Positions 1,830-28,727 of a stretch of DNA of 64,000 nucleotides are shown piece by piece (positions within the stretch are counted from its first letter, which is position 1; each line of letters starts with the position of its first letter). Position numbers and translations under genes: made by a program. The stretch is from positions 1-64,000 of the forward strand of contig NZ_LGDD01000339.1 in NCBI RefSeq assembly GCF_001279695.1, given 5' to 3'. Below the pieces are notes generated by a model, which did no database searches, was not told where the DNA came from, and saw only the letters and a list, made by a program, of their open reading frames with translations. Source of the DNA: Streptomyces sp. WM6378. GTDB lineage: Bacteria; Actinomycetota; Actinomycetes; Streptomycetales; Streptomycetaceae.

Positions 1830-2834
1830 CTACAGCCAGCCCCGCCGCGTCGCCTGAATTCCCGCCTGAAACCTGCTCGTCGCCGCAAGGCGTCCCATCA
1901 GCACCGACATCCGCCGCCGCAGGCTCCGCTCGCTGATGTGGAGTTGCCGCGCGATCGCTTCGTCCTTCAAACCCGCCGCCAGCAGCGCCAGCAGCGCGTC
2001 GTCCGGTGTCGGCGTCTGCGCCGACGCGGCCACCGGGCCGGCGCCGATTCGCGCTCCGTCCAGCGCTCCCAGCGGAGTGCCCCGCTCCCACAGCTGCTCG
2101 AACAGGGCCACCAGCGCGTCCGTCAACGCCGAATGGCGCACCAGCACCGCGCTGTCCATCATCCGGTCGGCATGGGTGGACAGCGGCAGCAGCGCCCGCC
2201 GCCGGTCCGCGATCACCAGTTTCACCGGCACGCTCGGCAGCACCCGTATCCGCTCGCCCAGCTCCGCCAGCCGCTGTGCCTGCCGCCAGCCCCCGTCCGC
2301 GGCCAGCACCTCGGCGGCGTGTACCGCGCGGCACTCCACACCCCGTTCCAAGAGCCGCTGCATCGGGGCCAGGCTGTCGTCGGCCGGATCCAGGAACGGC
2401 GGGCCGACCAGCGTCAGCAGTTCCCCCTCGGTGCCGGCCAGGAGGTCCTGAACTCGGGCATACTGCGCCGTGCCACCCCGTACCACTTCGGTCAACCGCG
2501 CCGGGTCGTCGCGCAGTTGAGCCTCTCGGTACTCGGCGGACAGCTCGTCCACCGACTGCCGCATGCGGTCCAGCTCCGTGCGGCGTTGGCGCAGCAGCGC
2601 GCCGAGCGCCACCTGGGGATCGGCTGACAGCCACGCTTCGCCATCGGTCCCCTCCGCATCGTCACCGTCGGCCTCGACCAGCCCGAGCCCGGCCAAGTTC
2701 CGCAGCGCGGCCCGTACTTCGGCCCGGGCCAGGCCCGTTTCCGCCGCACACTCCTGGGCCGAACCCCTGCCGAGCCTCACGAGCGCCCGATAGACCCGCT
2801 CCTCGCTCTCACCCAACCCCACGGCTTCCCACAC
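1830..2834 (-). CDS. TrmB-like/LuxR-type HTH transcriptional regulator
   Basis: A 334-aa cytoplasmic regulator. The first 70 residues form a winged-helix TrmB-like domain (LGESEERVYRALV and a second helix pair rich in Ala/Glu). A long middle domain follows with a helical TrmB-like sensor region, and a LuxR-type helix-turn-helix sits at the C-terminus (about 285-325, KDEAIARQLHISERSLRRR). This TrmB-plus-LuxR architecture is common and mostly orphan in Streptomyces. The start is the GTG at 2834 behind GGGAG; a GTG four codons later is possible. The effector and targets are unknown. The IS110 element lies directly downstream but does not appear to interrupt the frame. Confidence 0.8.
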   Translation of the reverse strand: MWEAVGLGESEERVYRALVRLGRGSAQECAAETGLARAEVRAALRNLAGLGLVEADGDDAEGTDGEAWLSADPQVALGALLRQRRTELDRMRQSVDELSAEYREAQLRDDPARLTEVVRGGTAQYARVQDLLAGTEGELLTLVGPPFLDPADDSLAPMQRLLERGVECRAVHAAEVLAADGGWRQAQRLAELGERIRVLPSVPVKLVIADRRRALLPLSTHADRMMDSAVLVRHSALTDALVALFEQLWERGTPLGALDGARIGAGPVAASAQTPTPDDALLALLAAGLKDEAIARQLHISERSLRRRMSVLMGRLAATSRFQAGIQATRRGWL

Positions 2835-2927
2835 TCCCGCAGGCTATCCGGCCGCCGCCGGACCCGACAGCATCCGGCAGCGGCCTGTGGACAACTCGTC
2901 GACGCAGGGCTCGCGTTCGGCCGCGAC

Positions 2928-3983
2928 TCAGCCGGCCGTCAGGAACAGCGAGGTGACCTGTGGCAGCCCGGCCGGATCCAGGGTCGCGGTGGACTTCCCG
3001 GCACGCAGGTCGATGGAGGTGATGCCGGCCTTGTCCTCCTGCGCCTGGAACAACTGCTTGCCGTTGGATGCCAGCGCCAGCGTGCCGAAGGAGTCCGGTA
3101 CGGCGATCTGACGGGCTTTCAGCGTGCGGGTGTCCACCACCGAGACGCTGTCCTCCGCGGTGTTGGCCACGTACAGACTTCTGCCGTCCTTCGACAGCTG
3201 GGCCTTGAACGGTCGCCCGCCGACCTGCGCCTGACGGGGCTTCGCGGCCGGGTTGTCCACTTGGTACTCCGAGACGGTGCCACCGTAGTAGTCAGTGGCG
3301 TACAGCGTCTTGCCGTCGTGGCTGAGTAGCACCTCGCGAGGAGCCCTGCCGCCGGTGTAAGAGGCCGTGACCTGGTAATTCGACAGGTCCATTCGGTCGA
3401 TCCGGTCCCTGGAGTAGATACCCAGGTACGCGGTCCTTCCGTCGGAGCTGATCGCCACGCCCTGCGCCGGCGCACCCAGATCGACGGTCCTGACGACCTT
3501 GCCGGCCATGAGGTCCACCACCGCCAGCGACTGAGCGACCATGCTGGTCACGTATGCCGTCTTCCCGTCCGGGGAGAGTGCGATGGCGTCGGCGTCCACG
3601 CCCATCGGGATCTCCTTCGCCAGCCTGCGCCCGACCATGTCCACCACGGACAGCGTGCCGCTGTGGTGGTTCGCCAGGTACGCGGTGCGCTGGTCCTTCG
3701 AGAGTGCGGCCGCCCAGGTCTCGGCTTCCTTGCCGATCCCGAAGCGTGCCACCTCCTTGCCGGTGGCGGGGTCGATGCCGACCAACTCGGTGTTGTCGTC
3801 CTTGCTGAGGGTGCTCGGTGTGGTCCACAGCGTGTCGTGGCCGCCACCGTGCTGGTTCCTCTGCTGCCCCGGGTGGCCGTTGCCCGGCTCGGCTGAGGCG
3901 TGGGCGCTCACGGGGGTCGCGCAGAGCAGCGCCACCGCGAGCGTGACGGCCGTGGACAGGCTGCTTCGACGTGCGCGTCTCAT
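2928..3983 (-). CDS. Secreted YVTN-type beta-propeller protein
   Basis: About 351 aa. The ATG at 3983 has a GGAGG site eight bases upstream and is preferred over an upstream in-frame start at 4022. A Sec signal peptide (RR-rich n-region, TAVTLAVALLCATPVSAHA) is followed by a His/Gly-rich linker. The rest is a seven-bladed YncE/YVTN-like propeller, with repeated blades containing SKDGRTAYL, SPDGKTAYV, SSDGRTAYL and SHDGKTLYA. Such proteins are extracellular binding scaffolds. The substrate is unknown. No operon partner is evident. Confidence 0.85.
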   Translation of the reverse strand: MRRARRSSLSTAVTLAVALLCATPVSAHASAEPGNGHPGQQRNQHGGGHDTLWTTPSTLSKDDNTELVGIDPATGKEVARFGIGKEAETWAAALSKDQRTAYLANHHSGTLSVVDMVGRRLAKEIPMGVDADAIALSPDGKTAYVTSMVAQSLAVVDLMAGKVVRTVDLGAPAQGVAISSDGRTAYLGIYSRDRIDRMDLSNYQVTASYTGGRAPREVLLSHDGKTLYATDYYGGTVSEYQVDNPAAKPRQAQVGGRPFKAQLSKDGRSLYVANTAEDSVSVVDTRTLKARQIAVPDSFGTLALASNGKQLFQAQEDKAGITSIDLRAGKSTATLDPAGLPQVTSLFLTAG

Positions 3984-7806: not shown

Positions 7807-8185
7807 GATGTCTCCAGTGTGAGGGGCCCACGGATGTGGCGCTCCCCGGACAGTGCCCCCTCCCCGACCCCCACTCGCGGTTTGTCATCAGGTTCCCCGG
7901 TATGGCCCAGCCCATCAAACGACGGCCACCACGGACACACCCAGCGCCCACACAACGCCACCGGCCGCGAGTTCCGAAACGGACACCCACCGCAACCCTG
8001 CGCCACCCTTCACCACCGACGCGGCGCCCCAACTTCAGTAACTGCTACGGGACCAGGCATGTGCTCCGCCGCAGCGGACATGAACCACTACGGTGCGTTC
8101 CAGCGGTGCCGAACCGGTTCAGCCGGGCTCGGCACCGCCGTACATTACCGTCCGCATCACACCGTCCCGGCGGTAAGAAGAAGGC
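7807..8185. other. Divergent intergenic region, no gene seen
   Basis: This 379-bp gap separates a minus-strand and a plus-strand gene, so it should hold both promoters. The open frames across it lack codon bias and recognisable domains. I see no strong palindrome. It is less GC-rich than the genes around it in places. Confidence 0.5.
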
Positions 8186-8215
8186 GTGGAGAGGGGAAGC
8201 GTGGAGAGGGGAAGC
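8186..8215 (+). repeat. Perfect 15-bp tandem duplication at gene start
   Basis: The 15-bp unit GTGGAGAGGGGAAGC occurs twice head-to-tail (8186-8200 and 8201-8215). Each copy contains a GTG start codon and a GAGAGGGG purine tract. Copy one can act as a ribosome binding site for the GTG of copy two, or the first GTG can be used, adding five residues. Confidence 0.9.
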
Positions 8216-8962
8216 TTGCGGGATCTGCCCAAGTCGGCGACGGAGCCCGATGGTTCCGCGATCGTGCGCGTGCTCAGTTACAACGTCCGTTCCATGCGCG
8301 ACGATGTCGAAGCCCTCGCCCGGGTGATCCGGGCCTGCGAGCCCGACGTCGTCTGCGTTCAGGAAGCGCCGCGGTTCTTCCGCTGGCGCAAAGCCGCCGC
8401 CCGCCTCGCCCGGACCTCCGGGCTCGTGTACGTCGCGGGCGGCGCCACCGCCTCCGGCCCCATGATCCTCTCCTCGCTGCGTGCCCACGTGGAGCGCACC
8501 GAGGACGTCCTGCTACCCCGCACCCCCGGCCTGCACCAGCGCGGTTTCTCGACCGCCGTGCTGCGGTTCGGACCCGCCCGGCTCGGGGTCCTCAGCTGCC
8601 ATCTGAGCGTCAACGCCCAGGAACGCCACGGGCAGGGCCGACTGCTCTTGGAGAAGCTGTCCGACTTGAACGTGCCGTACGCCGTCGTCGGGGGCGACTT
8701 CAACGACCGGCCCGACGGCCGCACCTTCGGGCTGCTCGCGGACGCCCTGCAGGACGGCTGGGCGGCGAAGCCGTGGGGGCGGGAGCACACCACACGGCTG
8801 GGCGATCCGCTGCAGAGGATCGACGCGGTCTTCGCGACGGACGGGCTGGAAGTGTTGGGGTGCGGGGTCCCGATGGGGCTCCCCGGCGTCTTTGTACGAG
8901 ACCTCCGGGCAGCCACGGATCACCTGCCCGTGCTGGCCGCGCTGCGGGTGCCCGCCACGTAG
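8186..8962 (+). CDS. Endonuclease/exonuclease/phosphatase-fold protein
   Basis: 258 aa from the GTG at 8186, or 253 from the duplicated GTG at 8201. The EEP fold is clear: LSYNVRSM at the start of the fold (Asn in the first active strand), the metal-binding Glu in VCVQEAPRFF (about 64), CHLSVN, GGDFNDRP (Asp/Asn pair, about 172) and a terminal ATDHLPVLA with the catalytic DH. No signal peptide is visible. Members hydrolyse phosphodiesters, from DNA repair nucleases to lipid phosphatases, so substrate cannot be assigned. It is a single gene with convergent neighbours. Confidence 0.88.
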   Translation: MERGSVERGSLRDLPKSATEPDGSAIVRVLSYNVRSMRDDVEALARVIRACEPDVVCVQEAPRFFRWRKAAARLARTSGLVYVAGGATASGPMILSSLRAHVERTEDVLLPRTPGLHQRGFSTAVLRFGPARLGVLSCHLSVNAQERHGQGRLLLEKLSDLNVPYAVVGGDFNDRPDGRTFGLLADALQDGWAAKPWGREHTTRLGDPLQRIDAVFATDGLEVLGCGVPMGLPGVFVRDLRAATDHLPVLAALRVPAT

Positions 8963-9094
8963 CACAGCACCGCATCGCACCCCCGCTCCTCGAACTCCCC
9001 CGCCTGCCAATATCGACCGGAGCGGTGTCATGCACTACTGCTGTCCCGTGAAGCCTTGACGAGACTTCAGGGCTGGTGCTCTCGCGCTTGGCAG

Positions 9095-15881: not shown

Positions 15882-17063
15882 TCAGGCGGCCAGCGCGTGG
15901 CGCTCCGAGACGTCCGTCGCGAGCATCAGGTTCACCACCGCGACGACGCTCTCCAGGAGGGCCTGCGTGCCCAGGACCAGTTGCTCGTCCGGAGTGTGCT
16001 CCAGGTTGGAGTGGCTGTAGCCGCCCGTGCTCGGCACGAAGATCATCGCCGTCGGGACCTTCGTGCTCATCACGCTCGCGTCATGTCCGGCGTAGCTCAG
16101 CATCCGCTGGAAACGCTCGGAGTTGCGCACGCACACCTGCTCCACGGCATCGACCAGCCGGGTGTCGAAGTCCGCGACGGGCTTCGCCGACGTGGTGCGC
16201 AGCTCCGCCCTGCACTGCTCCTCCCCGGCGATCAGCCGCAGCTCCTCGGCCAGGAGTTCCTCGATCGCGTCGAGGGCCTTTTCCGTTCCGGCACGCACCT
16301 CCACCTGCACGGTGGCCGCGCCCGGCACCACGTTCGGCGCGTTCGGCTCCAGGACGATCGAGCCCACGTTGCCGATGGAGGCCGGATCGACCTGCTGGCA
16401 CACGTCCCGCACCAGTGCTCCGAAGCGGGTCGCCACCCGTCCCGCGTCGGCGCGCAGCTCGAACGGCGTGGTGCCCGCGTGGTTCTCCTGGCCCTCGACC
16501 CCGATCATGTAGCGGCGCACTCCGACGATGCCGGTCACGGCGCTCAGGTCCAGCTGGGCGCGTTCCATGCGCGGCCCCTGCTCGACGTGCAGTTCGAGGT
16601 AGCCCAGCAGTTCCGTCACGTGGGGGTTGTGGCTCAGGGCCGTCGATCCGACGAGGCCGCCGTTCGACTGGAGGGTGACGCCCTCCTCGTCGTAGAACGC
16701 GACCGTCTCCAAGTAGTCGGCTGCCGGGTGGTTCGCTTCGTGCAGGGTGCGCAGCACCTCCATGGCCGCGATCACTCCGTACGCCCCGTCCAGCCGGCCG
16801 CCGCCGGGGACGGTGTCGGCGTGGGAACCGATGAGCAGCCAGGGGCCCTCGCTGGCGGCGCGTCGGCTGAATACGTTGCCGATGTCGTCCCGCCAGGTGT
16901 CGAGCCCGGCGACGCGCATCGTCTTGTCGATCCAGTCACGCCCGGCGAGATCGGCCGCTGAGCCGGCCACCCGGTAGATGCTTCCCTTGGGGTCGGCGCC
17001 GATCTGGCCGAGGTGGGTGATGTCGGACAGCAGGCGCTCGGCGTTGATGGTCGGGAAGGACAT
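15882..17063 (-). CDS. M20-family Zn-dependent amidohydrolase (allantoate/N-carbamoyl-amino-acid type)
   Basis: 393 aa of the M20 carbamoylase class that hydrolyses allantoate, ureidoglycolate or N-carbamoyl-L-amino acids. Metal ligands are visible: His80 in IGSHADTVPGGGRLDGAYG (with Asp91), Glu125/126 in FYDEEG, His in ELHVEQGP (about 178) and a C-terminal His in YSHSNLEHT (about 351). The dimerisation-domain segment GQENHAGTTPF is intact. It is followed by a strong hairpin and preceded at 110 bp by an EamA transporter on the same strand, which could export or import the product. Exact substrate unknown. Confidence 0.9.
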   Translation of the reverse strand: MSFPTINAERLLSDITHLGQIGADPKGSIYRVAGSAADLAGRDWIDKTMRVAGLDTWRDDIGNVFSRRAASEGPWLLIGSHADTVPGGGRLDGAYGVIAAMEVLRTLHEANHPAADYLETVAFYDEEGVTLQSNGGLVGSTALSHNPHVTELLGYLELHVEQGPRMERAQLDLSAVTGIVGVRRYMIGVEGQENHAGTTPFELRADAGRVATRFGALVRDVCQQVDPASIGNVGSIVLEPNAPNVVPGAATVQVEVRAGTEKALDAIEELLAEELRLIAGEEQCRAELRTTSAKPVADFDTRLVDAVEQVCVRNSERFQRMLSYAGHDASVMSTKVPTAMIFVPSTGGYSHSNLEHTPDEQLVLGTQALLESVVAVVNLMLATDVSERHALAA

Positions 17064-17173: not shown

Positions 17174-18238
17174 TCAGGCGGCCGTGGATGACGACTGCGG
17201 CTGTGCGGCGTGCGGGGTGGGTGCGGTCTGTTCTGTCTGGGCGGCCGGCTCGGCGCGCTTGGCCGTGGCACCCGATCCCAGCGCGATCCCCACGATGATC
17301 AGTCCCATGCACGCCACCTGGATCGGGGTCGTCGGCTCACCGAGGGCGAAGTACGAAACGACGGCGACGAACACGGGCTGCAGGTAGTAGATGAACCCGG
17401 CGCGGGTGGCACCGATCAGGTCGATGGCCTTGTTCCAGGTGAAGTAGGCGACGGCGGACGAGCACACGCCGATGTAGAAGAGGGCTCCGAGCGTTCCGCC
17501 GGTCGGCGTGAACCCGCCCTGGACGCTGAGGCTCACCGCGTATGCGGGCACCAGCATCAGCGTGCCCAGCACGAACGTGGTGAAGAGGAACGCGAGCCCC
17601 GTCAGGCCGGCCGGCTTGCGGCGCACCATCGCGCTGTACCCGGCGAACGTCGCCGTGGCCACCAGCATCCACAGGTCGCCCGTGGAGAACTCCAGGCCCA
17701 GGAGCACCGACAGGGAGGCTTTGCTGACGAGCGCGATCACGCCCAGGAGCGCGATGACCAGACCGGCGGCCCGGCGCCGTGAGACTCGTTCACCGCCGGT
17801 CAGCACTCCGAAGGCAACGATCATCGCGGGCGACGTGGCGGCTATCAGCGCCAGGTTGGTGGCCGAAGTGCTGCGGCCCGCCTGGTAGATGAGGCTGTTG
17901 AACAACGTCACCCCGAGCAGTGCCGCGAGCGTGAGGAAGCCCAGGTGCTTGCGGATCAGGGCGCGCTGCCGCCATGTCTGCGCGGCGGCCAGCGGTGCCA
18001 CCGCCAGCATCGCGATCGTCCACCGCCAGAAGGCGGTCTGGACCGGAGGCACCGTCTCGTGCAGGGCGCGTGCTATGACGAAGTTGCCCGACCAGATGAG
18101 GGTGGCCGCGGTTGCCAGGATCGGCCCCAGCCACACGGCGAGCGAGCGCTTCGCGGACCGGGGTCCGGACGGCGCCGCCGCCCTCTTCGACGGCGCGCTC
18201 ACGGGTTCCGTCTCGGCGGCTTTCGTATCGAGGGCCAC
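17174..18238 (-). CDS. EamA/DMT-family metabolite exporter
   Basis: About 354 aa from the GTG at 18238; the longer frame to 18319 adds an unlikely Arg/Pro-rich stretch. Ten transmembrane helices in two EamA repeats are apparent (TLIWSGNFVIARALH early in repeat one; LGALFYIGVCSSAVAYFTWNKAI in repeat two). Family members export amino acids or drugs. The C-terminus is a polar Ala/Thr-rich tail. It probably shares a transcript with the M20 amidohydrolase. Confidence 0.87.
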   Translation of the reverse strand: MALDTKAAETEPVSAPSKRAAAPSGPRSAKRSLAVWLGPILATAATLIWSGNFVIARALHETVPPVQTAFWRWTIAMLAVAPLAAAQTWRQRALIRKHLGFLTLAALLGVTLFNSLIYQAGRSTSATNLALIAATSPAMIVAFGVLTGGERVSRRRAAGLVIALLGVIALVSKASLSVLLGLEFSTGDLWMLVATATFAGYSAMVRRKPAGLTGLAFLFTTFVLGTLMLVPAYAVSLSVQGGFTPTGGTLGALFYIGVCSSAVAYFTWNKAIDLIGATRAGFIYYLQPVFVAVVSYFALGEPTTPIQVACMGLIIVGIALGSGATAKRAEPAAQTEQTAPTPHAAQPQSSSTAA

Positions 18239-18576
18239 GGTGGTTCTCGTTTCTTTCGGTGGGTCCGGTAAGGGCGGTCGAGGGCGCCTTTCGTACGGGC
18301 GGCAGCGGGGCCGTCGCAACGGATGAACCGTCGGAGTCGGCCGCTCCTGGCCGCTGGCCGGGGCTCTCGATGCCTGAAGACTCCACGGCCGCGCTCCCGT
18401 TCCGTTACCGCCCCGCTCCCGTCTCGCGGGACCGCGCCGCCCCAGCGAGGGGAACCTGGAGGGAACGCGCGTGCCGTCCTACAGGTCAAGACCACTCTGT
18501 ACCGTCCCGCGGGCAACCCCTATGATCGCCGAGTAATGCCCTGGCCAGGGATTTTCAGGGCGGAACGGGGAAGGTA
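18239..18576. other. Divergent intergenic region between exporter and SARP genes
   Basis: The 338-bp gap must hold promoters in both directions. Its right end has a TATGAT word (18521-18526) and the palindrome listed separately. No gene is seen. A GGGGAAGG ribosome binding site precedes the SARP start. Confidence 0.5.
18539..18550. promoter_or_regulatory. Palindromic site upstream of SARP-type regulator
   Basis: CCCTGGCCAGGG is a perfect 12-bp palindrome 26 bp upstream of the SARP gene's start and just downstream of a TATGAT -10-like word. It is placed to block or modulate transcription of the regulator. The binding protein is unknown. Confidence 0.45.
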
Positions 18577-21500
18577 ATGACGGGGTACGACGGCGGGAAT
18601 CCACGCTTCAACATCCTTGGTCCGCTTGAGGGTTGGGCGGACGGGAAGCGACTGCGCCTCGGCGGCGCGATCCACGAACGCGTGCTCGCGAGCCTGCTCC
18701 TGGAGGCGGGCCGCACCGTTCCCGTGACCCGTCTGGTGGAGGCGGCATGGAACGACAACCCGCCCGCGACCGCCGCCCACCAGGTGCGCAAGGCCGTCGC
18801 CGAACTGCGCCGGCGCATTCCGGGCGGCGGCGAGGTCGTCGTCACCGACGGGCCCGGCTACCAAGTGGCCCTCGGTGCGGTGGAGCTGGACCTCACCGAG
18901 TTCAGCGCCCAGGTGCGCCGGGCGAGCCTTGCCGGCGGTGAGGGGCAGCCCGCCGAAGCGGCCGACGCGCTGCGCCGGGCGCTCGACCTGTGGCGCGGGC
19001 CCGCCCTGTCGGGAACGGGCAGCGACCTCCTCGAAGCCGCCGCGACCATGCTGGAGGAGCGCCGCGTCGCCGCCGCCGAGCAGCTCACGGAGCTGCGCCT
19101 GTCCGCCGGCGAGACCGGCGAACTCGTCGCCGACCTGCGTGATCTCGTCGCCCAGAACCCGCTGCGGGAGACCCTGCGGGGCCACCTGATGCTCGCCCTG
19201 TACCGCGGCGGCCGGCAGGCCGAGGCCCTGGAGGAGTACCACAAGGTCCGCGACCTCCTCGTCGAGGAGCTCGGCATAGACCCCAGCTCCCGGCTGAGCG
19301 AGCTGTACGAAGCGATATTGCGCGAAGCGCCCGAAGTGCAAGCCCCGGTCCCCCGCCCAGCGGCGCCGCGGGACAGCGCGCCCGCCGAGCACTCCGCGGC
19401 CGCCGCTCCGGCCAAGGAGCCGGCGCCACGGGATCACCCGAAGCAGGACGATCCGTCCGAGGCGCCCTGCACCCTGCCCTACGACCTGGCGGACTTCACC
19501 GGCCGCGACCGGGAGCTCTCCACGCTGCTCGCCTCCATGACCGGCGCCGGATCCTCCACGAGCGGCCGCGGCGAACCCGGTCGCACCAGCGCCCTCGTGG
19601 CGATCGACGGCATGGGCGGCAGCGGCAAGACCTCCCTCGCCGTGCACGCCGCGCACACGGCCGCCGCCGACTTCCCGGACGGCCAGCTCCACATCGACCT
19701 GCGCGGGTTCACTCCCGGCGAGACCCCGATGACACCGGCCGCCGCGCTCGACAGCCTGCTGCGCGCCCTCGGCACGTCCAGCGACCACATCCCCGACGAC
19801 GTCCCGGGGCGCGCCGCGCTCTGGCGCTCCACGCTCGCGGGCCGCCGCGTGCTCCTCCTGCTCGACAACGCCGCGGACGCCGCACAGGTGCTGCCGCTGC
19901 TGCCCGCCTCACCGGGCTGCCTGGTACTGGTCACCAGCCGGGAACGCCTGCTCGACCTCGACGGCGCCGACTGGCTCTCCGTCGGCCCCATGTCGCCCGA
20001 GGACGGCACCCTGCTCATCGAGGAGGTCCTCGGTCGGGCCCGCGTCGCCGCGGAGCCGGAGGCCGCCGCGGAGCTCGTACTGCTCTGCGGCAGGCTTCCC
20101 CTCGCGCTGCGCATCGTCACCGCACGCCTGCGCAACAGGCCGCGCTGGACGCTGAGTTACCTCGTGGACCGGCTGCGCGACGAGACGTACCGCCTGGAGG
20201 AACTCAGCGCGGGCGAGCGCAGCGTCGCCGCCACCCTGCAGCTGTCGTACCAGGCCATGGAGGAGGGGCACCGCGCGGCGTTCCGCGTCCTTGGCCTGCA
20301 CCCCGGCGCGGACGTGGACGCGCATGCCGCCGCCGCGCTCCTGGGGACGGACACGCGCAGCGCGGAGACGGTCCTAGAACGGCTCCTGGACGTCCAACTG
20401 CTCCAGCAGCCCGACATCGGCCTGTACCGATTCCACGATCTCGTACGGACCTTCGCGCAGAGCCAGAGCCGGCCCGCCACCGAGCAGGACGACACAGCGG
20501 CCGTACGGCGGCTGCTCGACTACTACCTCACGGCGACCGAGGCCGCCTGCACCCGTCTGTTCCCGGGCCGCAGCCCGCGCCCCACTCAACTCGCGCCCTA
20601 TGAAGGGGAGGTGCCCCGCTTCGCCGACATGGAGCAGACCCGCCGCTGGTTCGACCACGAACACGCGAGTCTCGTCGCATCGGTGTCCCTCGCCGACCGG
20701 CACGGGTTCGACCGGCACACCGTCAGCCTCACCCGCAACATCGTGTTCCGGCTCAACGCCCTCGGCCGCTACGACGAGTTCAAGGACCTCAGCCAAACCG
20801 CCGTCGTCGCGGCCCGGCGCACGGGGGACCTCGCCGTGCTCGGTTTCACCCTCTCCAACCTGAGCGTGGCCTGCTGGAAGCTCGGCCATCTCGAAGAGGG
20901 CATCCAGTCCGCCACCGAGGGCCGTGACATCGCCGCCCGGCTCGGCGACCAACTCACCGAGGCACACGGCGAGTCCACGATCGGACTGCTCCTCACCGTT
21001 CTGGGCCGCCACGCCGAGGCGCTCCCCCGCCTGGAACGCGCACTCGGCCTGGAGCGAGCCCTGGAGGTCCCGCGCGCCGAGGCCGAGACCCTCACGAACC
21101 TCAGCACCCTGTACGCCCAGTGGGGCAAATACGACGAGGCGGCCGCCATGGCCCGCGCCGCTCTCGCGGTCCACGACCGCCTCGACTACCGCGACAGTCA
21201 CGTCATGGCGCTCACCGACCTGGCATTCGCCCAGGTCGGACTCGGCTCCTACGAGGAGGCCCGCGACTGCCTGCGCCGGGCCCGCGAACGCTGCCACCCG
21301 TCGAGCCCGCCCGGTGACGTCGCGCTCGCCCTCGCACTGTCCGCCACGGTGGAGGAACTGTTCGGGGACGCCGACGGATCCGCGGGTTTCGCGGACGAGG
21401 CGCTGCGGCTCGCCCGTGCCGGCGGCAGTCCCACCCGGCAGGCCAAGGTCGAGAACATCGTCGGGCGGTTCCACGGGCGCCGCGGTGACCACGAGCGGGC

Positions 21501-21693
21501 CGCGACACTGCACCGCCGGGCGTATGAGCTGGCGGCGCCGATCCACTACCGCGCCGAGGAGGCCGGCGCCCTGTACGGCCTGGCCGACGCCGCCGAGGCG
21601 TCGGGGGACCTGCCGGCGTCCGCGCGCCACCAGGAGGCCGCCGACGCGCTGAGCGCCTTCATGGGGCGTGTCGCCCCGCAGCTCACCGACTGA
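18577..21693 (+). CDS. SARP-NB-ARC-TPR transcriptional regulator (AfsR-like)
   Basis: 1038 aa, full length for the AfsR class. Residues about 1-95 are an OmpR-like winged helix (FNILGPLEGWADGKRLRLGG, VRKAVAELRRRIP); about 96-250 the bacterial transcriptional activation domain; about 330-640 an NB-ARC STAND ATPase with a Walker A at about 345-352 (DGMGGSGKTS) and LLLLDNAADA as Walker B; about 690-1030 TPR repeats (NLSTLYAQWGKYDEA, LTDLAFAQVGLGSYEEA). STAND regulators stay off until a ligand binds the TPR sensor, then bind DNA and recruit RNA polymerase. The start has GGGGAAGG before it. Its 3' end overlaps by 11 bp the convergent gene for a small exported peptide, a possible ligand. No biosynthetic gene cluster is adjacent. 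Confidence 0.95.
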   Translation: MTGYDGGNPRFNILGPLEGWADGKRLRLGGAIHERVLASLLLEAGRTVPVTRLVEAAWNDNPPATAAHQVRKAVAELRRRIPGGGEVVVTDGPGYQVALGAVELDLTEFSAQVRRASLAGGEGQPAEAADALRRALDLWRGPALSGTGSDLLEAAATMLEERRVAAAEQLTELRLSAGETGELVADLRDLVAQNPLRETLRGHLMLALYRGGRQAEALEEYHKVRDLLVEELGIDPSSRLSELYEAILREAPEVQAPVPRPAAPRDSAPAEHSAAAAPAKEPAPRDHPKQDDPSEAPCTLPYDLADFTGRDRELSTLLASMTGAGSSTSGRGEPGRTSALVAIDGMGGSGKTSLAVHAAHTAAADFPDGQLHIDLRGFTPGETPMTPAAALDSLLRALGTSSDHIPDDVPGRAALWRSTLAGRRVLLLLDNAADAAQVLPLLPASPGCLVLVTSRERLLDLDGADWLSVGPMSPEDGTLLIEEVLGRARVAAEPEAAAELVLLCGRLPLALRIVTARLRNRPRWTLSYLVDRLRDETYRLEELSAGERSVAATLQLSYQAMEEGHRAAFRVLGLHPGADVDAHAAAALLGTDTRSAETVLERLLDVQLLQQPDIGLYRFHDLVRTFAQSQSRPATEQDDTAAVRRLLDYYLTATEAACTRLFPGRSPRPTQLAPYEGEVPRFADMEQTRRWFDHEHASLVASVSLADRHGFDRHTVSLTRNIVFRLNALGRYDEFKDLSQTAVVAARRTGDLAVLGFTLSNLSVACWKLGHLEEGIQSATEGRDIAARLGDQLTEAHGESTIGLLLTVLGRHAEALPRLERALGLERALEVPRAEAETLTNLSTLYAQWGKYDEAAAMARAALAVHDRLDYRDSHVMALTDLAFAQVGLGSYEEARDCLRRARERCHPSSPPGDVALALALSATVEELFGDADGSAGFADEALRLARAGGSPTRQAKVENIVGRFHGRRGDHERAATLHRRAYELAAPIHYRAEEAGALYGLADAAEASGDLPASARHQEAADALSAFMGRVAPQLTD

Positions 21694-21874
21694 CCGGCAG
21701 CGACTGGACGACCACGGTCGGGCCCTTGCTGTCGGCCCGCACCGAGGTCGGGCCCTTGCTGTCCGCGAGCGCCGGGGCGGTGGAACCCGTCGATGCCGCA
21801 CCCGCGACGCCGAGACCCAGGACGAGGGCGGCCGCCGCGAAGACGCCGACGAACTTGGTGAGGGAGCTGCGCAT
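21683..21874 (-). CDS. Small exported peptide with tandem decapeptide repeat
   Basis: 63 aa. ATG at 21874 with GAAGGA seven bases upstream. A Sec signal peptide (KFVGVFAAAALVLGLGVAGAA, cleavage probably after ALA or AGA) leaves a mature peptide of roughly 25-35 residues. It contains the decapeptide ADSKGPTSVR followed directly by ADSKGPTVVV, and ends QSLPVSR. There are no Cys residues. The gene is convergent with, and overlaps by 11 bp, the SARP-TPR regulator gene. An ATP-grasp enzyme gene lies 170 bp upstream on the same strand. The pattern suggests a secreted signalling pro-peptide or a precursor modified by the ATP-grasp enzyme; neither is shown. Confidence 0.65.
   Translation of the reverse strand: MRSSLTKFVGVFAAAALVLGLGVAGAASTGSTAPALADSKGPTSVRADSKGPTVVVQSLPVSR
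21716..21763 (-). repeat. 18-bp direct repeat with 30-bp period inside peptide gene
   Basis: GGTCGGGCCCTTGCTGTC occurs at 21716-21733 and 21746-21763 with no mismatch. The 30-bp period equals ten codons, so the repeat duplicates ADSKGPT in frame. Exact DNA identity suggests recent duplication or selection on both copies. Confidence 0.95.
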
Positions 21875-22044
21875 GGTGACGTCCTTCGAGTGAGTGGTGG
21901 TGCGTGGTCGCTCTGACATCACCGATGTTCGTGCGTCGCCTTCCCGAACCGGTCCTGCCCCGTTCCCGGCGGATACCTCGGTGTTCCCGGGCCGCTCCGA
22001 TGACGGCCCGGACCGATGGCGAGCGGTCCCCCGCCATCCACAAT

Positions 22045-22968
22045 TCAGCCCGACAGCAGCCACGGCCCGGACGGCGGCCGGCCCGCGAGCGCGCCCAGCA
22101 CGTCCACCACGACGTCCCGCCCGGCCCCGTTGCCGACCGGAGCCCGCGGGACCGAGCCCCCGGTCGCCTCCACGTCCGCGACGCGCGGCCCTTCGCGCGT
22201 CAGCACCACACGCGTCCGTACGAAGCCGAACTCCAGCCCCACGAGGTCGAGCAGCGCACGGACGACGGCCCGCGCCCCCACCACGTCGGCGTCCGTCGAG
22301 CGCCCGCCGAGCCCTGGTCCCGTACGAGGCCCGACCACCGCGCCGTCCAGCGCGGTCAGCCGGATCACCTCGTGCATCCCCGCATGGCTGAACGTCTCTA
22401 CGACCACCTCGGGCCCGGCGAGACACTCCTCCACGACGCAGGGCATGCGGGGCGACCGCCGGGCCCAGGCCTCCAGTTGGGCCCGGCCTCGGATGATCTC
22501 GCCGCGGTGCCGTCCCGACCCGTTCTTGATCACGAAGGGGTACGGGAACCCGTCCGCCCAGGCCAGTGCCATCGCCGCCGATGTGACGGGCACGGCGCGC
22601 ACGGCGGACACCCCGCTCTGGTTGAGCATCCGTCGCAGGAGGGCCGGATCGCGGAGCCCCTCAAGGACCCTGCCCTGCCCGGGGTGCAGTTCAAGGAGCG
22701 CCTGCCCGACCGCCAGCCGGGGGCCGGGCAGGTCGCCGAAGTACAGCACGTGCGTGATGTCGAAGGCGCGCGCCGCCCGGACCAGCAGGGCCCGGAGGGC
22801 GCCCACGTCGTCGACGTTTCCCGCCAACTGCCGCTCGGAGAAAGCCCCTTGAGCCGGAGGGTCGTGGTCGGCCCGCACCAGCCACGCGTCGAGCCCCACA
22901 GCCGCGACCGACTCCAGTACCCGCGGTTCCGGCCGCACGAGCAGCACCCGCTGCGCGTTCCCGTTCAT
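22045..22968 (-). CDS. ATP-grasp domain protein
   Basis: About 307 aa from ATG 22968, preceded by GGGAGGAGGG. It resembles ATP-grasp carboxylate-amine ligases: an N-terminal Rossmann-like part (VLLVRPEPRVLESVAAVG), an ATP-binding lysine region FVIKNGSGRHRGEII (about 165-180), CVVEECLAGPEVVVETFS (about 205-222) and a final metal-site strand. That last motif reads VADVEATGG, where amino-acid ligases normally have ExNxR, so catalytic geometry may differ. Such enzymes join peptides or cross-link RiPP precursors. It is on the same strand and upstream of the 63-aa peptide gene, a candidate substrate. Confidence 0.8.
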   Translation of the reverse strand: MNGNAQRVLLVRPEPRVLESVAAVGLDAWLVRADHDPPAQGAFSERQLAGNVDDVGALRALLVRAARAFDITHVLYFGDLPGPRLAVGQALLELHPGQGRVLEGLRDPALLRRMLNQSGVSAVRAVPVTSAAMALAWADGFPYPFVIKNGSGRHRGEIIRGRAQLEAWARRSPRMPCVVEECLAGPEVVVETFSHAGMHEVIRLTALDGAVVGPRTGPGLGGRSTDADVVGARAVVRALLDLVGLEFGFVRTRVVLTREGPRVADVEATGGSVPRAPVGNGAGRDVVVDVLGALAGRPPSGPWLLSG

Positions 22969-23180
22969 CGCGCCCTCCTCCCAGCACATGACATGCCAGG
23001 AGAGTGCCGCCAGCGCTTCCCGTCACCGTCCCGCCCGGATCCCCCGCGCGGCGACAGCCCGGCCCCCGACGCCTGGCACGGCACCAGGGAAGGCAGGTGA
23101 TCGGGCATCAGACGGCGTTGTCAGTGCCTCCACCTACAGTGAAAACATCACTCGGGGAGCCTTTGAGGGGGAGCAAAAGC

Positions 23181-26675: not shown

Positions 26676-26696
26676 CTGATGCCTGATGCCTGATGC
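26676..26696. repeat. Three tandem CTGATGC heptamers
   Basis: CTGATGC is repeated three times without mismatch between the ChW gene's stop and the following hairpin. It is a small microsatellite-like repeat; no role is evident. Confidence 0.9.
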
Positions 26697-26699
26697 CTG

Positions 26700-26738
26700 G
26701 CGGGAGTGGTGCCGGACCGCGGCCGGCACCACTCCCGC
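26700..26738. terminator. Bidirectional terminator hairpin, 16-bp stem
   Basis: GCGGGAGTGGTGCCGG (26700-26715) pairs perfectly with 26723-26738 around a 7-nt loop. It lies between the convergent ChW and FAD-oxidase genes and should terminate both. There is no U-run on either side, as is common in Streptomyces. Confidence 0.9.
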
Positions 26739-26815
26739 GACAGGACAGCCATCCCCGTCGGCACGAATACGGCCGTGCATCAGAGCCGCGCACGACCGGA
26801 CCCGGCCCGCCCCGG

Positions 26816-28453
26816 TCAGGTGGACGGCCGGATCGACAGTGCGTGGTGGAAAACGTCGCGCGGGTCCCAACAGGCCTTGACCTGTTGGAGGCGCGGATAG
26901 TTGTCCTTGTAGTAGAGGGTGTGCCACGGCACGCCGGAGGTGTTCCACTCGGGGTCGGCCAGGTCGGTGTCCGGGTAGTTGATGTAGGCGCCGTCGCTGA
27001 CCGCGCCGGGCACGGGGACGCCGCCGGTGTCGGCGTACACGTCACGGTAGAAGGCGCGGACCCAGGCGAGGTTGGTGGCGTCGTCGCGCTCGTCGGACCA
27101 GATCGTCTGGTAGACGGCCTTCATGATCACATCTCGTTGGGCGACGGCCGTGGCGTCGGCCGCGACGGCGCCGACCTGGCCCCCGTACCCGACCAGGAGC
27201 ATGCCGCCGCCCGCCGTGCCCGAGCTGTTGGTCAAGTTCCGGTGGATGGCGTCGAGTTGCGCTTCGGTGAGCGAGCGGCGCAGATAGCCTGCCTTGATCT
27301 TGTAGCGGCGGGTGCCGACGTTGCCGGGCTCGCCGGTGCCCGGCCAGGTGGTCGGGTGCAGCCAAGGCATCGAAAGCCAGGTCTCCTGCCCTGCGAGCCC
27401 GGTGCCCGCGGTGACCGCGTTCGCGAACTCGCGCACCAGGTTCTGGGCACCCGGAATGTCCGCGTCGATCTGCACGGTCATCAGGAAGCCGCCCGCGCTG
27501 CTGTGCATCGGGATGAGGATCGCGTAGAGGCCGGCGTACGGCGAGCCGGGCGCGCTGTTGCGTTCGTGCCAGGTACCGAAGTTGTGCAGCAGCCTGGTGA
27601 ACGCCTGCCGGGTCATCTTCTTGTCCCAGGGCCAGGTGACCAGGTACGCCAACTGCTCGCGCGGAGCGGCGGGCAGGAGCCGCGACGGGTCGCCCCCGCG
27701 CGGGCCGGGGGATCGCAGCCAGTACCGGGTGACCACCCCGAAGTTCCCGCCGCCTCCGCCCGTGTGCGCCCAGAACAGGTCGCGGTGCGGATCGTCCGGC
27801 TCGCGCGTCGCCACCACCGCTCGGGCGGTGCCGTCCTGGTCGACCACCACCACCTCGACGCCGTAGAGGTGGTCCACCACCGATCCGTACCGGCGGGACA
27901 GCGGCCCGTACCCGCCGCCGGCGAAGTGTCCGCCCGCGCCCACCTCCGGGCAGCCGCCGGCGGGGACGGTCACTCCCCAGCCCTTGAACAGCGTCCGGTA
28001 GACGTGCCCGAGCGTGGCGCCCGGCTGCACCGCGAACGCGCCGCGCGCAGCGTCGTAGCCGACGGCGTCCATGGGCGACATGTCCAGGAGCAGCCGCACG
28101 GCCGGGTCGGCGGTGAAGTTCTCGAAGCAGTGTCCGCCGCTGCGCACGGCCACCCGGCGCCCGGACCGTACGGCATCGGCGACCGCGCGCACCACCTGCT
28201 CGGTCGACCCGACGACGCGGATCTCGTCCGGCCGCCCCACGAAGCGGAAGTTGTTGCCGCGCAGCAGGCTTTCGTAACGGGTGTCCCCCGGACGGACCGT
28301 CACCGGCCCGAAGCCTGTCCGCTCCCCCGTCGCCGCGCCGGTATCCGCGGCAGCCGCGGAAGCCGGCGGGCCGACCACGCTCGCCGCCGCGGCCATCGCA
28401 CCTGCCGCGAGCAGCCCACGGCGGTTCAGCCGATTCGGATCCGCTCCGCTCAC
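26816..28453 (-). CDS. Secreted FAD-linked oxidase, berberine-bridge type
   Basis: About 545 aa. Two tandem GTG codons (28456, 28453) follow GGGAGG; the second is better spaced. A Tat-like signal is present (NRRGLLAAGAMAAAASV). The FAD_binding_4 domain has the SGGHCFENF motif (His for covalent flavin, about 108; Cys in CPEVGAGGHFAGGGYG, about 170, for the possible second link), so bicovalent FAD is plausible. The C-terminal BBE segment is recognisable (YINYPDTDLADPEWN). Members oxidise sugars, alkaloids or phenolic natural products. Substrate unknown. Confidence 0.9.
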   Translation of the reverse strand: MSGADPNRLNRRGLLAAGAMAAAASVVGPPASAAAADTGAATGERTGFGPVTVRPGDTRYESLLRGNNFRFVGRPDEIRVVGSTEQVVRAVADAVRSGRRVAVRSGGHCFENFTADPAVRLLLDMSPMDAVGYDAARGAFAVQPGATLGHVYRTLFKGWGVTVPAGGCPEVGAGGHFAGGGYGPLSRRYGSVVDHLYGVEVVVVDQDGTARAVVATREPDDPHRDLFWAHTGGGGGNFGVVTRYWLRSPGPRGGDPSRLLPAAPREQLAYLVTWPWDKKMTRQAFTRLLHNFGTWHERNSAPGSPYAGLYAILIPMHSSAGGFLMTVQIDADIPGAQNLVREFANAVTAGTGLAGQETWLSMPWLHPTTWPGTGEPGNVGTRRYKIKAGYLRRSLTEAQLDAIHRNLTNSSGTAGGGMLLVGYGGQVGAVAADATAVAQRDVIMKAVYQTIWSDERDDATNLAWVRAFYRDVYADTGGVPVPGAVSDGAYINYPDTDLADPEWNTSGVPWHTLYYKDNYPRLQQVKACWDPRDVFHHALSIRPST

Positions 28454-28727
28454 CACGGCCTCCCGCCCGGGCCGACCTCCGCGATCAGCGCTGTCGTCGC
28501 CGTCGACCGACCGCCTGCGCCGAGGCGACGTCGAGGCATCCTCCGTAACTCACGACGCCCGCCGCAGGGACGAGGTGTGCGACGGGCGCGTCTGTCCGCG
28601 TGACACATGTCAACTCCCTTTCTCAGTCCGGTTGCTGACGTCTCATCATGCCGTCTTCCCGCATTCCGCCCCACCCCTTGTCGACGGGCACACGGACGGC
28701 TATGGCGGCGCGAGTGGCGTCGCCGGG

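Follow-up and report, generated by a model that had tools for sequence, protein, structure and literature searches.

In the RRNPP systems of Firmicutes and phages (Rap-Phr, NprR-NprX, PlcR-PapR and AimR), the gene of a TPR protein lies adjacent to a gene for a small exported propeptide. RRNPP_detector asks for a receptor of about 250–500 aa with peptide-binding TPRs, and its use was confined to Firmicutes and viruses (PMC10075063). For the large SARPs, passages of a paper on the structure of AfsR call the TPR domain a tentative sensor and give a promoter rule, namely direct repeats 11 or 22 bp apart, the 3′-most of which is separated from the −10 element by 8 bp (PMC10936776). For the ligand sensed by the TPR domains of large AfsR-type SARPs, the gene family described here offers a candidate encoded next door. 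It was met in a stretch of 64,000 nucleotides from Streptomyces sp. WM6378, in the following called the window (positions 1 to 64,000 of contig NZ_LGDD01000339.1, assembly GCF_001279695.1; genome of 9.49 Mb in 361 contigs), in which the gene of a 1038-aa SARP-NB-ARC-TPR regulator of the STAND type (18577..21693, forward strand) converges with the gene of a 63-aa exported peptide (21683..21874, reverse strand), upstream of which a third gene encodes a 307-aa protein of ATP-grasp fold (22045..22968, reverse strand). This set is conserved in Streptomyces and looks like an undescribed peptide signalling system; a self-regulated signalling circuit is the best explanation, to which we assign a probability of about 0.6. 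A full-text literature search, beyond the reach of which lay most subscription papers and bioRxiv preprints, retrieved no description of such a peptide-SARP pair, in agreement with a preliminary description of the window that knew of no system with this set.

The exported peptide and its regulator across Streptomyces

The peptide gene starts with ATG behind a ribosome site of the AAGGA type and encodes MRSSLTKFVGVFAAAALVLGLGVAGAASTGSTAPALADSKGPTSVRADSKGPTVVVQSLPVSR. The N-terminus is signal-like by a hydropathy rule (not SignalP), and two copies of the core ADSKGPT follow at residues 37–43 (21746..21766, reverse strand) and 47–53 (21716..21736, reverse strand). An AxA site precedes the first core, and cleavage there (ALA↓D) would yield DSKGPTSVR..., DSKGPTVVVQSLPVSR and shorter forms as candidate processed peptides. 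The 3′ ends of the peptide and SARP genes overlap by 11 bp, tail to tail; exported peptide, doubled core and overlap had all been reported in the preliminary description and are confirmed by translation and by relatives at the same regulator. Between the peptide genes of the window and of Streptomyces sp. SDr-06 there are 25 base changes, 14 of them at codon position 3, or, counted by codon, 11 synonymous and 8 non-synonymous changes. Within the core, K and T vary (DSMGPT in the second SDr-06 copy, DDKGPG at other loci).

How widely is the gene set distributed? When the third protein was compared with 84,980 species genomes, one locus was found, that of SDr-06, where the order of the three genes is retained and the identities to the window are 87% (peptide), 82% (regulator) and 70% (third protein). 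Relatives of the third protein occur in 80 of 392 genomes of the genus (E ≤ 1e-10), and in 20 of these that were fetched a regulator of the same clade was present in the stretch in 13 and on another contig in one. Between regulator and third gene the first-found loci carry a small open reading frame (ORF) of 49–63 aa with a signal sequence, ending in cores such as ADNQGPT, ADDKGPG or ADTHGPG. The 63-aa peptide itself found nothing among 5.8 billion proteins (none of four scored candidates at E ≤ 1), probably because ORFs this short are seldom predicted, and a single-sequence search of 100 relatives gave, beyond itself, weak matches only, though 40 genomes had one at E ≤ 0.1, so that an alignment profile was needed for peptide searches. 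Such a profile, built from 15 sequences, matched 34 times at E ≤ 2.1e-8 in the 392 genus genomes, 14 of these matches being its own sources, and in 19 of the 20 new genomes a regulator 46.7–59.8% identical to that of the window lies convergently beside the peptide. Among 11 weaker matches that were fetched (E 2.8e-5 to 0.0012) only one, at locus L138, was real, as judged by its neighbour, and most of the 95 genomes matching at E ≤ 0.01 look like chance. Class-wide, 394 genomes gave four matches at E ≤ 1e-5, all in Streptomyces (one of 137 genera) and including the source genome; a plasmid search gave none at E ≤ 0.1.

The association was also approached from the regulator. Its TPR part, searched in 121 genomes with 17 candidates scored per genome, gave 26 matches, 19 of them with an identity of 48% or more across the regulator. 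Two of these 19 lie too near a contig border; 16 of the other 17 have a convergent, ATG-started exported ORF, the TPR protein and a small exported propeptide (by the hydropathy rule) thus being encoded side by side, and at the seventeenth the convergent ORF starts with CTG and ends in ALADERPPGLVQY. As controls served 27 large SARPs, AfsR orthologues and others, hand-picked among the matches listed (20 from relatives, 7 of 14 other matches in the source genome). Sufficient sequence was available for 26 of them, and two of these pass the rule, in both cases with ORFs unlike the family (Fisher one-sided p = 9e-9 against 16/17). Regulators without a profile match in part carry long repeat forms of the peptide. 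Duplicate places (L086/L159, L138/L171) and short re-fetched loci were counted once throughout. Three of the less similar regulators (L160–L162, 41–43% identical) have an exported peptide ending in DNNGNG or NNGNG downstream on the same strand; an ATP-grasp-like gene lies just upstream in these loci, a rearranged and diverged version of the gene set. The other four low-identity regulators have a GTG-started frame unlike the family (L163), none (L164, L166), or only 341 nt of sequence (L165).

In a regulator tree of 55 rows (quick method, midpoint root, L086/L159 left out) one 47-row clade with a Shimodaira-Hasegawa-like approximate likelihood ratio (SH-aLRT) support of 99 holds every row with such a peptide: 43 convergent (L155 by its CTG start), three on the same strand, and L154, which ends too soon. 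Across the loci the core, often D-x-x-G-P, is present in 1 to about 10 tandem copies. Judged by eye, multi-copy peptides stand in at least four separate places of the tree with single-copy relatives beside them: the window and SDr-06, to which the two-copy form is specific, the group of L132, L123, L126 and L128–L134 with 3–7 copies, L138/L152/L153 with 9–10 (DGEGPNV in nine GP units in L152, DEGPNAV in ten in L153), and L158 with seven GP units. Core types match the regulator subclades, again by eye; DDQGPTVI, for example, belongs to a subclade other than that of the window. Of what the preliminary description had proposed to look for, conserved synteny is found from both ends, in 19/20 and 16/17 loci, and the repeat number is variable.

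The regulator has the architecture of a large SARP, with Pfam matches to BTAD (2.8e-42), NB-ARC (5.7e-10) and TPR_12 (2e-21); Trans_reg_C stays below the Pfam cut-off (22.3 vs 26.2 bits). It is not an AfsR equivalog, scoring 590 bits against a cut-off of 1430 with the NCBIfam AfsR model, and the AfsR of the source genome is a separate gene above that cut-off (1785 bits), to which it is 36% identical. Its NB-ARC-TPR part matches two further models below their cut-offs, HaaT (392 of 1125 bits, residues 279–1012) and FxSxx_TPR (100 of 300 bits, best stretch residues 305–574). The TPR part was modelled at a mean predicted local distance difference test (pLDDT) value of 93.1, and the model aligns with Rap, NprR and AimR, absence of a family from this alignment being no evidence either way on that family. 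In the model the TPR groove resembles peptide-binding grooves, and the regulator is our proposed peptide receptor and activator.

Predicted SARP operators

A SARP-type triple 11-bp repeat (21940..21968, reverse strand) agreeing with the consensus at 14 of 15 positions lies 65 nt before the ATG of the peptide gene, with a −10-like GAACAT behind it at a fixed offset (21925..21930, reverse strand). Two more such boxes, both 14/15 and on the reverse strand, stand about 48 nt before the ATG of the ATP-grasp-like gene (23016..23044, −10-like CACTCT at 23001–23006) and facing an EamA transporter gene divergent from the regulator (18393..18421, −10-like GAGTCT at 18378–18383); the last is also present in SDr-06. 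The pattern consists of three CGGGAnn units at 11-bp steps followed at a fixed distance by xAxxxT. All three window sites have the repeat spacing and the −10 element of the SARP-promoter rule and are predicted operators.

Across 31 scanned loci (514 kb) 46 strict boxes (at least 14/15) were counted, 27 loci having at least one, versus 0.9 expected under an order-1 Markov model, which is blind to codon structure; 44 are intergenic by gene calls made here. None occurs in 140 kb of control SARP loci or in 172 kb of background loci. Behind 41 of the 46 boxes xAxxxT is found at one and the same offset, any other tested offset giving at most two. A looser box (12/15 plus −10) lies within 300 nt of 36 of 43 peptide genes, 34 times at 51–91 nt before the ATG, and shuffled peptide-gene upstreams contain 0.04 such boxes on average and one at most. 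It also precedes 19 of 59 ATP-grasp family genes and 31 of 437 other called genes. The motif was derived from ATP-grasp and peptide gene upstreams and then counted on the same loci, which makes these numbers descriptive in part. More independent are the single −10 offset, the absence of boxes from the controls and the scan of the source genome. This genome has 11 boxes at one mismatch (one with the reversed pattern), and of ten examined only the three of this locus have a −10 element, the other seven lacking xAxxxT, for which reason the regulon in this genome is likely limited to this locus. Within the window considered by itself, chance does not rarely produce three boxes at no more than two mismatches (6 of 100 shuffles did). 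Another 29 fetched loci contain 15 further boxes, among them one at L163, outside the clade, and a consensus-free triple-repeat scan upstream of the regulators gave mixed results. Taken from sequence, the pattern makes the regulator a very probable activator of the peptide gene.

A degenerate ATP-grasp partner and variable neighbours

The start of the third gene at 22968 is supported by a ribosome site and by database relatives (P0004–P0008) that begin at the same residue. The preliminary description had considered all family assignments firm, which holds for the regulator by Pfam; the third protein has no Pfam match at E ≤ 0.1 and is assigned by fold alone. Its model (pLDDT 85.7) has an ATP-grasp fold, and L-amino acid ligases occupy Foldseek ranks 1–4 (3vot at 2.1e-14, 4wd3, BacD) with TM-scores of 0.51–0.59, other ATP-grasp families following close behind. 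In an alignment, the HTE and ESQARLGG stretches of the ligase of L074, which bind metal, correspond to RTR and DVEATGGS in the window protein; other motifs, such as the K of FVIK, are kept. The protein is thus a degenerate relative of these ligases, and of the ATP-grasp enzyme named earlier the fold stands while ligase activity is probably lost. The family forms a shrinking length series, from full ligases with ATP-grasp_4 and LAL_C2 domains (L074) through 371 aa (L070), 307 aa (window), 271 aa (L083) and 172 aa (L124) to forms of 122–147 aa (L120, L121, L123, L126, L128, L130–L134, L137), and twelve loci have an ATP-grasp-like protein of 122–172 aa only. Kept is a C-terminal-half motif (V-E-T-x-T-x-x-G-M-H-x-V ... 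V-R-x-L-L-D-L-x-G ... T-x-V-V-L-T-x-x-G-P-R-V); lost is the ATP-binding part, which makes a role as peptide-modifying enzyme improbable. If its role is as proposed below, this shortening of a full ligase down to a remnant of 122 aa would clearly illustrate how an enzyme turns into a partner protein.

The co-occurrence of the three genes in related genomes, on which the preliminary description had made its proposal depend, is observed: regulator and peptide are regularly paired, and of 48 fetched stretches with a wider-clade regulator (L170, at a contig end, and duplicates left out) 43 give a match to a third-protein profile. In L118, L119 and L122 this match is weak and lies at the far side, in L155–L157 and L160–L162 it is on the other side of the regulator, and there is none in the fetched stretches of L129, L135, L154, L167 and L168, which makes the protein a common, not an indispensable, partner. 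An ATP-grasp-like gene was found at none of the 27 control SARP loci, which mostly span 5–6 kb as against 12–18 kb for most cases, a difference that bears on this count.

Beyond the regulator, the EamA gene of the DMT family (17174..18319, reverse strand; Pfam EamA 7.3e-43; the start may be 18238, giving 354 aa) is a predicted regulator target, possibly in an operon with a gene for an M20 peptidase (15882..17063, reverse strand; Pfam Peptidase_M20 3.4e-20). In L037 a relative of the EamA gene adjoins the SARP and one of the peptidase gene has the same place. Other neighbours vary by species: genes for a flavin reductase, a pyridoxal phosphate enzyme, an MFS transporter and a ligase in L074, a nonribosomal peptide synthetase in L123, a flavin adenine dinucleotide-dependent monooxygenase and a ketosynthase III in L118. 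In the window, a 636-aa ORF (26693–28603, forward strand) has no Pfam match at E ≤ 0.1. In L077 a gene for an HTH_31 and NB-ARC protein (2110–3579, reverse strand) is divergent from the SARP; its cluster recurs in L079, L082, L083, L085 and L121, six of its genes have a triple box upstream, and the protein may be a second STAND regulator and a target of the SARP. In L155–L157 the large SARP and the ATP-grasp-like frame have between them a match as long as a small SARP, 34–36% identical to regulator residues 10–258. In L127 a D-x-x-G-P peptide, AEDKGPATIEP (8930–9076, reverse strand), adjoins a gene of the cluster whose L123 member matches AAA_16, and an ATP-grasp-like frame lies elsewhere in that stretch. 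An exported peptide with about six ADNNWP-type repeats in L143 (6985–7380, forward strand) converges with a LuxR-type (GerE) regulator gene (7997–8938, reverse strand), and similar peptides in L139 (DDLGWPSPP) and L142 (ADVGWNSAKPG) are divergent from genes of the same sequence cluster, possibly a parallel peptide-regulator system.

The proposed circuit, its rivals and known systems

It is near certain that the peptide genes are real, that their products are exported and that a SARP controls them. What could the peptide do? In the favoured explanation the SARP-NB-ARC-TPR protein would bind the triple repeats and activate the three window units, which encode the peptide, the EamA exporter (perhaps with the M20 peptidase) and the ATP-grasp-derived protein, which may act in binding or as an adaptor. 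The peptide would leave by the Sec route and be cut into short D-x-x-G-P peptides, of which one precursor would yield several in some species; these would re-enter the cell and be bound by the TPR superhelix, lifting the NB-ARC/TPR brake off the SARP domain, in the direction of activation rather than inhibition, and closing a self-feeding loop. The peptide is probably a ligand for the regulator encoded beside it, a view favoured by its signal sequence, by cores specific to subclades and by the fold of the TPR part. Computation has provided the gene set and its synteny, the amplification of the repeats, the operator and promoter pattern and the TPR fold. Of the proposal that a secreted peptide is tied to the TPR regulator, synteny from both ends, repeat number, cores that follow the subclades and the SARP-type promoter speak for the tie; processing, re-import and binding remain the conjectural part. 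More broadly, we see an even chance that Streptomyces harbours a pheromone family in which multi-copy secreted D-x-x-G-P precursors are matched to subclades of STAND-type SARPs, closed loops of auto-induction govern exporters and biosynthetic genes, and a former ligase, whittled down and non-enzymatic, acts as partner. If true, Streptomyces gains a TPR-type peptide signalling system, and adding peptides would be a way to switch on silent genes; the candidate ligands are short, defined and synthesisable, and the defined promoter set could serve as read-out.

Several observations weigh against this circuit. Between the hydrophobic stretch and the AxA↓D site lie about 10–13 residues, a long distance in a signal peptide, and therefore more than one cleavage may be needed. 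Six of the 20 loci fetched through the ATP-grasp-like gene have neither regulator nor peptide-profile match in the stretch (one is a 3.4-kb contig), and the L127 peptide belongs to the family and has no regulator within 18 kb. No box was found at 7 of the 43 peptide genes (L122, L125, L129, L135, L152, L167, L168), and none of 34 regulator genes has a looser box upstream on its own strand. Plain Foldseek ranks the eukaryotic LGN first for the TPR model, with APPBP2 and Rap at ranks 30–31; TPR superhelices are common and a shared fold shows no function. The same facts also fit a peptide that is an effector target of the SARP and not its ligand.

This last alternative is the main rival, unlikely in our judgement: the peptide would be an output, a secreted effector (wall-active, antimicrobial or developmental) comparable to AfsS, and the operator on its gene would be the whole of the link. 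The operator pattern indeed gives the direction from regulator to peptide, tandem repeats also fit an effector produced in bulk, and AfsS, in the passages seen, has 63 aa with three 12-residue repeats (PMC2267785) and is a known large-SARP target (PMC10936776). Points against an output, none of them decisive, are core types that track the regulator subclades by eye, tail-to-tail genes in 43 of 44 core-clade rows (L155 by its CTG start, L154 ending too soon), and a modelled TPR groove that resembles peptide-binding ones. Still more doubtful is a RiPP (ribosomally synthesised and post-translationally modified peptide) precursor, as the preliminary description had suggested as a second reading, the cores of which would be modified by ATP-grasp ligases or other cluster enzymes and the product exported by the Sec signal. 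A Sec-type signal is unlike graspetide leader peptides, the window protein is degenerate and twelve loci have the 122–172-aa forms only, peptides at L129, L167 and L168 have no ATP-grasp-like gene that was found, and the core varies at its K and T. This weakens the suggestion; some ground is left to it by the full-length L-amino acid ligases at some loci, by the gene neighbourhood and by the distant relation of the regulator's STAND part to the RiPP-associated HaaT and FxSxx TPR proteins. In addition, multi-core precursors are known for graspetides, and in a graspetide survey the genes associated with ATP-grasp enzymes include those of TPR proteins whose role is unclear (PMC8939145). That the peptide ORF is a chance frame, antisense or adjacent to the end of the regulator gene, as small size, 11-bp overlap and the empty protein search might suggest, is almost certainly wrong given a conserved family with its own promoter and codon-position pattern and two genes that do not overlap in most loci outside the window's subclade.

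Among known systems, RRNPP pairs resemble this one in the adjacent genes, in the TPR alignment and in single-copy peptides that carry the core near the C-terminus. They differ in receptor (a 250–500-aa TPR protein there, a 1000-aa SARP-STAND activator here) and in phylum, and here there are up to about 10 tandem cores and a third conserved gene; with 1038 aa and SARP and NB-ARC domains, the regulator is not filed as an RRNPP member. AfsR-AfsS of Streptomyces coelicolor shares the large SARP with NOD and TPR, and a repeat-bearing small protein whose gene has SARP-type promoter repeats and is a target. AfsS is described as 'sigma-like', is not known to have a signal sequence and is encoded on the same strand as afsR, and the window SARP is far from AfsR in identity and model score. 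Graspetide and pheganomycin-type pathways likewise combine a gene of ATP-grasp fold with a small neighbouring precursor whose core is repeated; here the partner is degenerate or truncated and the signal of Sec type. A pheganomycin-type pathway (PGM1/PGM2) found no support in a PDB sequence search at E ≤ 1, where none of the 9 listed sequences was PGM1-like (the presence of PGM1 there was not confirmed), or in the survey passages (PMC8939145). FxSxx-COOH/HaaT systems, which pair a TPR protein of STAND type with a small RiPP precursor, have a related NB-ARC-TPR part, the below-cut-off matches excluding the SARP part, and are cyclophane RiPPs. MalT, finally, senses maltotriose, and unlike in MalT-type STAND activators the proposed ligand here is a peptide.

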